Assembly: GCA_949451265.1 (NCBI GenBank) | Contig: CASTQR010000100.1 | Coordinates: 1-6,186, forward strand | DNA length: 6,186 bases | Direction of reading: 5' to 3' | Source: an uncultured Eubacteriales bacterium | Lineage (GTDB): Bacteria > Bacillota_A > Clostridia > Oscillospirales > Oscillospiraceae | Shown here: positions 5,269 through 5,726 of the stretch, piece by piece | Position numbering within the stretch: position 1 is the stretch's first letter | How the letters are laid out: each line of letters begins with the position of its first letter | The notes under the pieces: model-generated | Seen by the model: only the letters and a program-made list of their open reading frames with translations | The model's database searches: none | What the model was told of the DNA's origin: nothing | Program-made: the position numbers and the translations under genes

Positions 5269-5289
5269 TTACTGGGCGATCTCCACGAT
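5269..5289 (-). pseudogene. Displaced original 3' end of rpmA
   Basis: The minus strand reads ATC GTG GAG ATC GCC CAG TAA, encoding IVEIAQ-stop. Joined to the intact part of rpmA at the duplicated ATCGT, it continues the frame exactly as ...RKQVSIVEIAQ-stop. That is the same length as the present protein, and the stop lies just before the operon terminator. I read it as the native rpmA tail cut off by insertion of the palindromic element. It is no longer translated from rpmA. Confidence 0.75.
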
Positions 5290-5366
5290 AACACGCGACG
5301 GCAATGTCCCATTGCCGTATTCCGCGAAGCGGAATCTGCGCGGCACCGCCGCGCACAGCGCGTGTT
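5290..5366. repeat. Cloverleaf module 1 of the palindromic element
   Basis: A closing stem AACACGCG (5290-5297) / CGCGTGTT (5359-5366) encloses three perfect hairpins. They are 5298-5318 (9 bp, loop TCC), 5319-5335 (7 bp, loop GAA) and 5337-5355 (8 bp, loop ACC). The first two abut each other and the closing stem with no unpaired base. The closing stem can extend outward by four more pairs, one of them a G-T, into the ACGAT repeat and the spacer GTCGC. The module is 77 nt long, of which 64 are paired. It is not a tRNA, as the loops are far too short. Confidence 0.8.
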
Positions 5367-5371
5367 GTCGC

Positions 5372-5457
5372 AACGCTCGTTCTTTTACAGCATAGCTGTA
5401 AAAGCCTGCGGCAGAGCCGCAGGGCAATAAATCCAGAGGATTTACTGCTCGAGCGTT
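5372..5457. repeat. Cloverleaf module 2 of the palindromic element
   Basis: A closing stem AACGCTCG (5372-5379) / CGAGCGTT (5450-5457) encloses three perfect hairpins. They are 5382-5404 (10 bp, loop ATA), 5405-5423 (8 bp, loop AGA) and 5428-5444 (7 bp, loop AGA). It is separated from module 1 by the 5-nt spacer GTCGC. Its outer end supplies the last four codons and stop codon of rpmA, and the stop falls in the third hairpin. The module is 86 nt long, of which 66 are paired. Sequence differs from module 1, but the plan is the same. Confidence 0.8.
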
Positions 5458-5726
5458 ACGATGGAGACCTGCTTGCGGTCCTTGCCCAGGCGCTCGAACT
5501 TCACCTTGCCGTCCTTCAGGGCGAACAGGGTGTCGTCGCTGCCCTTGCCCACGTTGACGCCGGGGTGGATGTGGGTGCCGCGCTGGCGCACCAGGATATT
5601 GCCCGCCAGCACGAACTGGCCGTCCGCCCGCTTCACGCCCAGGCGCTTGGCGTTGGAGTCACGGCCGTTCTTGGTGGAGCCGCCGCCCTTTTTGTGGGCG
5701 AAGAACTGGATATTAAGCTTCAGCAT
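5442..5726 (-). CDS. rpmA: Large-subunit ribosomal protein bL27
   Basis: bL27 binds near the peptidyl transferase centre of the 50S subunit, where its N-terminus reaches the tRNA ends. The 94 residues open with MLKLNIQFF-AHKKGGGSTKNG. The first nine residues are the Firmicutes extension that Prp removes to expose AHKK. Further family motifs are GRDSNAKRLGVKRADGQFV (21-39), ILVRQRGT (44-51) and DDTLFALKDGKVKFER (64-79). I chose ATG 5726 over an in-frame ATG at 5750 because family homology starts there and AAAGGA lies 11-12 nt upstream. The protease gene prp is directly upstream, 37 nt away. The last four residues, TLEQ, and the stop codon are encoded by the inserted palindromic element. The original ending appears to have been EIAQ. 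Confidence 0.97.
   Translation of the reverse strand: MLKLNIQFFAHKKGGGSTKNGRDSNAKRLGVKRADGQFVLAGNILVRQRGTHIHPGVNVGKGSDDTLFALKDGKVKFERLGKDRKQVSIVTLEQ

Follow-up and report, generated by a model that had tools for sequence, protein, structure and literature searches.

In the window, by which we mean the whole 6,186-nucleotide stretch of DNA analysed here, a 168-bp unit (positions 5290–5457) lies in the 3′ end of rpmA, with ACGAT direct repeats on both sides (5285–5289 and 5458–5462 on the + strand). We propose, with a probability of about 0.8, that this unit is a non-autonomous, MITE-like mobile element, which consists of two cloverleafs and a linker and is moved in trans via a 5-bp staggered cut, and that it occurs in two forms: a promoter family inserted at TA-NNN-TA, and an rpmA type with an end encoding the tail of ribosomal protein L27. 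In our reading, the rpmA and promoter elements belong to one new MITE-like family, and it is the rpmA type that brings a replacement for the end of a gene.

The inserted unit in rpmA had been noticed in a preliminary description of this DNA, and the observation is confirmed. As that description held, the present rpmA frame ends SIVTLEQ-stop, in which TLEQ and the stop codon come from the element, in frame and with the length unchanged at 94 residues. The original tail, ATCGTGGAGATCGCCCAGTAA (IVEIAQ-stop), is displaced to 5269–5289, 10 bases ahead of the terminator hairpin of the operon (5225–5258), exactly as described. Empty sites, which the description had expected in relatives, are indeed present. 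Through the neighbouring gene ysxB, we fetched 42 loci of relatives, in 39 of which rpmA was matched. All 39 lack the element and run uninterrupted into the normal tail, with VSIVEIAQ in 18 of them, and none of the 42 ysxB/rpmA loci contains an element according to model R2 (see below). The near relatives read ATCGTGGAG and a stop codon, followed by a terminator of the same kind, and this rpmA end corresponds to the window minus the element and one repeat. The loci of the closest relatives share about 84–91% nucleotide identity with segments of the window, which places the window in the Oscillospiraceae. The repeats and the empty sites together support the interpretation of the unit as an insertion into the rpmA end, with a 5-bp duplication and a replacement stop codon.

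How is the element constructed? On the rpmA strand, the order is ATCGT, the left cloverleaf of 86 nt, the linker GCGAC, the right cloverleaf of 77 nt, and ATCGT (Table 1). The two cloverleafs are closed and separated only by the 5-bp linker, and each of them comprises three hairpins with 3-base loops. The codons of the element-encoded rpmA end also contribute to the left cloverleaf, in which they make up part of the outer stem and of the first hairpin arm. The region 5280–5480 folds with −108.7 kcal/mol, as compared to a mean of −66.7 kcal/mol for 200 shuffles (z −8.98), none of which is as good. Strict clusters of three neighbouring triloop hairpins are absent from 2,646,807 bases of 299 other loci, and the hairpin arrangement is therefore more than chance. 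A hairpin scan allowing loops of 3–5 bases found one match in 578,334 bases of relatives and one in 2,068,473 bases of viral contigs, and a looser scan found 11 matches in the 578,334 bases of relatives, none with the architecture of the rpmA element when judged by eye. The terminal inverted repeat amounts to about eight imperfect bases (AACGCTCG versus AACACGCG). The element has no coding capacity of its own, and the frames crossing it are merely parts of flanking frames; no protein relatives were found for one frame that runs through it. No Rfam family scores above its gathering score on the element in the window or on the elements in six element loci.

Table 1. Features at the 3′ end of rpmA in the window
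Feature	Position	Strand	Basis
Left direct repeat, ATCGT on the rpmA strand (ACGAT on +)	5458..5462	-	sequence; same pentamer in empty sites; last bases of the original rpmA frame
Left cloverleaf, 86 nt, outer stem AACGCTCG/CGAGCGTT, three triloop hairpins	5372..5457	-	folds
Element-encoded rpmA end: third base of a Val codon, then TLEQ and stop	5442..5457	-	sequence; same in G228
Linker GCGAC (GTCGC on +)	5367..5371	-	middle three bases complementary to those of ATCGT
Right cloverleaf, 77 nt, outer stem AACACGCG/CGCGTGTT, three triloop hairpins	5290..5366	-	folds
Right direct repeat, ATCGT on the rpmA strand (ACGAT on +)	5285..5289	-	sequence
Displaced original rpmA tail; with the preceding ATCGT reads IVEIAQ-stop	5269..5284	-	sequence
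Operon terminator hairpin; like that of near relatives with an empty site	5225..5258	-	sequence and relatives
rpmA, present form, ribosomal protein L27, 94 aa	5442..5726	-	

Model R1, which was built from the window element alone, gave one strong match (78.8 bits, E 4.1e-12) in 394 genomes of the order, searched with stricter filters under which weak matches are lost. This match, in genome G228, lies at the same rpmA base as the window copy and is flanked by ATCGT, and the L27 protein again ends IVTLEQ-stop. The displaced tail in G228 is identical to that of the window over 21 bases. The outer stems and the linker region are nearly the same in the two copies, and the inner hairpins are largely rewritten. 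The first 17 bases, which encode the tail, differ at a Leu codon alone; this difference is synonymous and is matched by a change in the stem partner. Overall, 25 of the 69 base pairs are changed on both sides (12.5 in shuffles), with 130 of 131 cells paired, as counted on two sequences in an alignment fitted to the structure model. Since the untranslated tail is still identical in the two genomes even though the hairpins have diverged, two separate recent insertions would fit better than one old insertion. Within 42 genomes of the GTDB genus of L002, which is probably that of the window and includes Candidatus Enterenecus stercoripullorum (L021), BLAST and R1 found no convincing further copy, the multi-genome searches being run with stricter filters. 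A weak R1 match in this set (L048) proved on folding to be an unrelated structure. The further copies with 5-bp flanking repeats that the preliminary description had anticipated do exist in the genomes searched, which were those of organisms other than the host.

We found the natural counterpart of the element-encoded ending in a gene without the element. In genome G134 (L449), an uninterrupted L27 gene ends ATCGTCACCCTGGAGCAGTAA, which encodes IVTLEQ-stop, and the element-encoded ending of G228, ATCGTAACGCTGGAGCAGTAA, is identical to it at 19 of 21 bases. Accordingly, TLEQ in the element is probably no chance stop but a genuine L27-type ending that was acquired or selected. In 400 genomes of the family, the ending pattern occurs in G228, in G134, and in five one-mismatch matches, which we take for chance from the matched letters alone. 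TLEQ also ends 26 of 120 listed L27 proteins, as seen in the protein sequences alone; given G134, which has TLEQ without an element, these cannot be counted as 26 insertions. The preliminary description had ascribed the tolerance of the insertion to an in-frame stop near the element edge. The in-frame stop is there, but it appears to be more than a lucky one, as TLEQ-stop is the natural L27 ending in G134 and is also encoded by the diverged same-site copy of G228.

The G228 genome contains a second double cloverleaf (L301 1409–1582, contig C12), located at a TACAAT −10 box upstream of another gene. Its end sequences differ, its flanking repeats are ACAAT and its linker is GTTGC, so that it apparently represents a third subfamily. 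R1 scores it at E 4.3 and R2 at 51 bits (E 2.5e-9 in 495 kb). When R2 was run on 20 genomes of the G228 genus, it yielded elements with a common left-end sequence. The pattern of this left end, with up to three mismatches, has 86 matches in 17 of the 20 genomes and none in G380, G791, and G792, as compared to two for the reversed pattern; the 86 include unrelated sequence (for example L373, L376, L412, and L432), which was retained in the later counts. From 82 distinct rows we obtained 61 unique sites by merging those with at least 60% upstream identity, a few chance matches remaining among them. The linker could be read by script at 35 of these sites and the right end at 37.

Of the 37 unique sites whose right end was recognised, 29 show an exact 5-bp duplication and 8 do not. 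At the 29 duplicated sites, the elements are 153–259 bp long, mostly about 257 bp, and the target reads TA-NNN-TA, with the preceding T at 28 sites, the first A at 29, the last T at 28, and the following A at 26. The terminal repeat of this family is AATG/CATT. At 47 of the 61 unique sites, TANNNT is directly next to the left end, and a −35 sequence with at least four of six matches at a distance of 16–18 bp precedes 51% of these 47, as compared to 9.7% of shuffled upstreams. Many copies of the promoter family thus occupy genuine −10 boxes. Their orientation is biased: by a list of −10-like pentamers chosen after inspection of the data, 22 of the 29 duplicated pentamers match a −10 box on the element strand and 6 on the opposite strand. 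TTGTGG lies 17 bases ahead of the right-hand −10 box at 9 of the 37 sites, and is possibly the element's own −35 in some copies. Filled and empty versions of the same promoter can be compared directly in two cases. The promoter of a tatD-like gene has the element in G070 but not in G228 (89.7% identity over 117 positions), and G796 provides the empty counterpart of the L392/L414 promoter (70–72% identity over 116 positions).

Several partial or misleading copies were also encountered. At the promoter filled in G070 and empty in G228, genome G277 retains a decayed right-end remnant (L314, about 8380–8500). L370 and L398 are short derivatives, in which just the first hairpin and the far right end are left, as if the middle had been deleted. 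In L386, L389, L395, L419, and L428, TATGAT and the first ~14 left-end bases are followed by a leader with an unrelated hairpin, similar in several genomes, and these pieces are perhaps an old fixed remnant. The R2 match in L310 and a 26-bit match in L308 were dropped, as they directly follow fluoride riboswitches (L308 1653–1725, − strand, 40.6 bits; L310 1420–1492, + strand, 41.9 bits). These riboswitches lie upstream of an apparent cation antiporter gene, and the hairpins after them gave the false R2 matches. In the Rfam search of the six element loci, both riboswitches stand beside the place of the elements and are unrelated to them.

We next consider the relationship between the rpmA type and the promoter family. 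Model R3 was derived solely from the −10 family, using 24 of its left cloverleafs. Over 466 kb, it ranks the rpmA element of G228 first (40.0 bits, E 1.1e-9) and the right unit of the window second (20.9 bits, E 0.0018), with 13.4 bits as the best score outside the elements. Over 12.4 kb with the filters off, each of the best 11 matches falls on a cloverleaf of the window, L300, or L301, on one strand or the other, and the twelfth, at 11.5 bits, lies outside the elements. By these model scores, the window copy has a good tie to the −10 family, though a weaker one than the G228 copy has, and the window copy itself is tied most strongly to the G228 copy. The rpmA target, C-ATCGT-G, lacks the flanking T and A of most targets in the family.

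The elements share many features with known small elements of bacteria. As described in excerpts of two sources, bacterial MITEs such as Correia/NEMIS, RUP, and ERIC/RU-1 are short, gene-less, multi-copy sequences that duplicate their target, form stable stem-loops, and are mostly intergenic, some of them lying near or carrying promoters (PMC2229807, PMC10969869). The present elements are likewise short and non-coding, with a constant 5-bp duplication, empty sites, and copies in 17 of 20 genomes (some chance matches included). In contrast, they have two closed cloverleafs with a linker and duplicate the 5 bp of A-NNN-T on a −10 box, whereas those excerpts give TA at the MITE ends and mention no cloverleaf (PMC2229807, PMC10969869). 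Small palindromes inside protein genes are also known from RU-1 to RU-3 of enterobacteria (PMC2759123) and from the Rickettsia palindromic elements (PMC2229807), and RU-1 changes the C-terminus of the protein when it lies at the 3′ end of a gene (PMC2759123), as does the rpmA element. According to the same partial texts, these elements lengthen or alter the protein by read-through (PMC2759123, PMC2229807), whereas the rpmA element leaves the protein length unchanged, with an ending that is natural in the L27 of a relative. The Tn3-derived TIMEs similarly lack a transposase and make 5- or 6-bp duplications in A+T-rich targets, but the excerpted account gives them 38-bp Tn3-type terminal inverted repeats (PMC4133298), as compared to the ~8 imperfect bases here. 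No such family is named in the open-licence papers searched.

Neither phages nor plasmids gave a BLAST match to the element, and the genome sets gave only matches of ~23–34 bases. Scans of viral contigs for the hairpin, end, and junction patterns gave nothing or chance among the matches listed, and the end-pattern and junction matches, when folded, contain no cloverleaf. The transposase with matching ends that the preliminary description had hoped for was not found: the sequence fetched contains no visible autonomous relative with the same ends, Y1 transposases being the one family looked for by name.

Could the unit instead be a conserved cis-regulatory or small structured RNA of the rpmA operon, which is non-mobile, ancestral here, and lost elsewhere? 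The paired changes do keep the structure between two lineages at the same place, and the promoter-family elements lie where transcription as 5′ leaders would be expected. Against such an RNA, however, the element is missing from rpmA in 39 of 39 relatives, the target is exactly duplicated, the window and G228 share the same 21 bases of displaced untranslated tail despite the diverged hairpins, related elements are dispersed over 61 unique sites, and no Rfam family is found in the window element or on the elements of the six loci; we regard this explanation as very improbable. An element of the IS200/IS605 or REP/RAYT type, moved as a single strand by a hairpin-recognising Y1 transposase, would account for palindromic, hairpin-rich, multi-copy elements, and Y1 genes are present in 10 of the 20 genomes of the G228 genus. 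REP/BIME sequences with RAYT are likewise dispersed palindromes, paired and inverted, and IS200/IS605 elements make no larger target duplications (PMC2817692), in contrast to the exact 5-bp duplications here. Moreover, the elements lie beside none of 26 Y1 loci, at which R2 had no match with E ≤0.05 and the two clusters returned by the hairpin scan are unrelated. The linkage to IS200 is rejected on these 26 loci, and a Y1-driven element is scarcely credible. Two further observations concern this class of sequences. The IS200-type Y1 genes are multiplied in genome G349 (L337, L347, L351, and L354–L362; 12 matches, two in adjacent pairs). A palindromic unit with CTGTAG and CTAC boundaries occupies L001 5510–5577, which we take to be reminiscent of tagged REP sequences.

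What does the linker contribute? The linker and target read GCGAC/ATCGT in the window and G228, GTGAC/ATCAT in L308/L363, and GTTGC/ACAAT in L301, and in each of these the middle three bases of the linker are the reverse complement of those of the target. Such complementarity to the target centre is found at 18 of the 35 unique sites (9.3 expected; reached in 0 of 20,000 shuffles) and at 6 of the 19 non-ATAAT sites (1.0 expected; 0 of 20,000), as compared to 2 of 35 for the linker in the same direction (1.9 expected) and 0 for the reversed or complemented linker (0 expected). The other 17 of the 35 sites do not match, and we consider the complementarity a suggestive association, not a law. Pairing of the linker with the pentamer would turn a single-stranded circle of the element into one long duplex with two cloverleaf caps, which resembles folded recombination sites. 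Integron attC sites and the attP of CTX-type phages are folded single-stranded DNA sites for a tyrosine recombinase, and the element might be such a site, its circle being the cloverleaf-capped duplex. Both excesses of linker–target complementarity, 18 against 9.3 and 6 against 1.0, are in keeping with this. Nevertheless, the flanks are identical even at sites where the linker mismatches (for example L384, L387, L418, L434, and L436–L438), and these exact duplications favour a staggered cut of the transposase type, so that a recombinase site seems quite improbable. A further idea, which we consider doubtful, is that the linker is a guide, choosing the site by pairing with the three central bases of the target in folded single-stranded DNA or a melted −10 box, and that the rpmA type is a site-specialised lineage with a ribosomal-gene ending as its permanent cargo, able to live in a needed gene. 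If the linker does direct target choice, the family would be naturally re-targetable mobile DNA, with a rule readable from sequence.

Returning to the MITE-like element moved by a staggered cut, we propose the following course of events. An enzyme acting in trans would make a 5-bp staggered cut, and the target pentamer would thereby be duplicated. At TA-NNN-TA, usually a −10 box, the duplication would leave the native promoter complete on the left and create a second −10 box on the right. The rpmA type would target ATCGT in the rpmA 3′ end, and its left end would supply TLEQ and the stop codon through codons that also form a cloverleaf stem and hairpin. As far as the sequences indicate, each insertion would thus preserve what it lands in, gene or promoter, which may be why it is tolerated, and the cloverleafs would presumably be transcribed.

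The element therefore seems to avoid harm by its very construction, as the −10 box is duplicated at promoters, and the lost residues and stop codon are replaced in rpmA. Present in 17 of 20 genomes of one genus of gut Oscillospiraceae, the family would add ~250 bases of structured leader to many transcripts, and such leaders matter for both annotation and expression in that genus.
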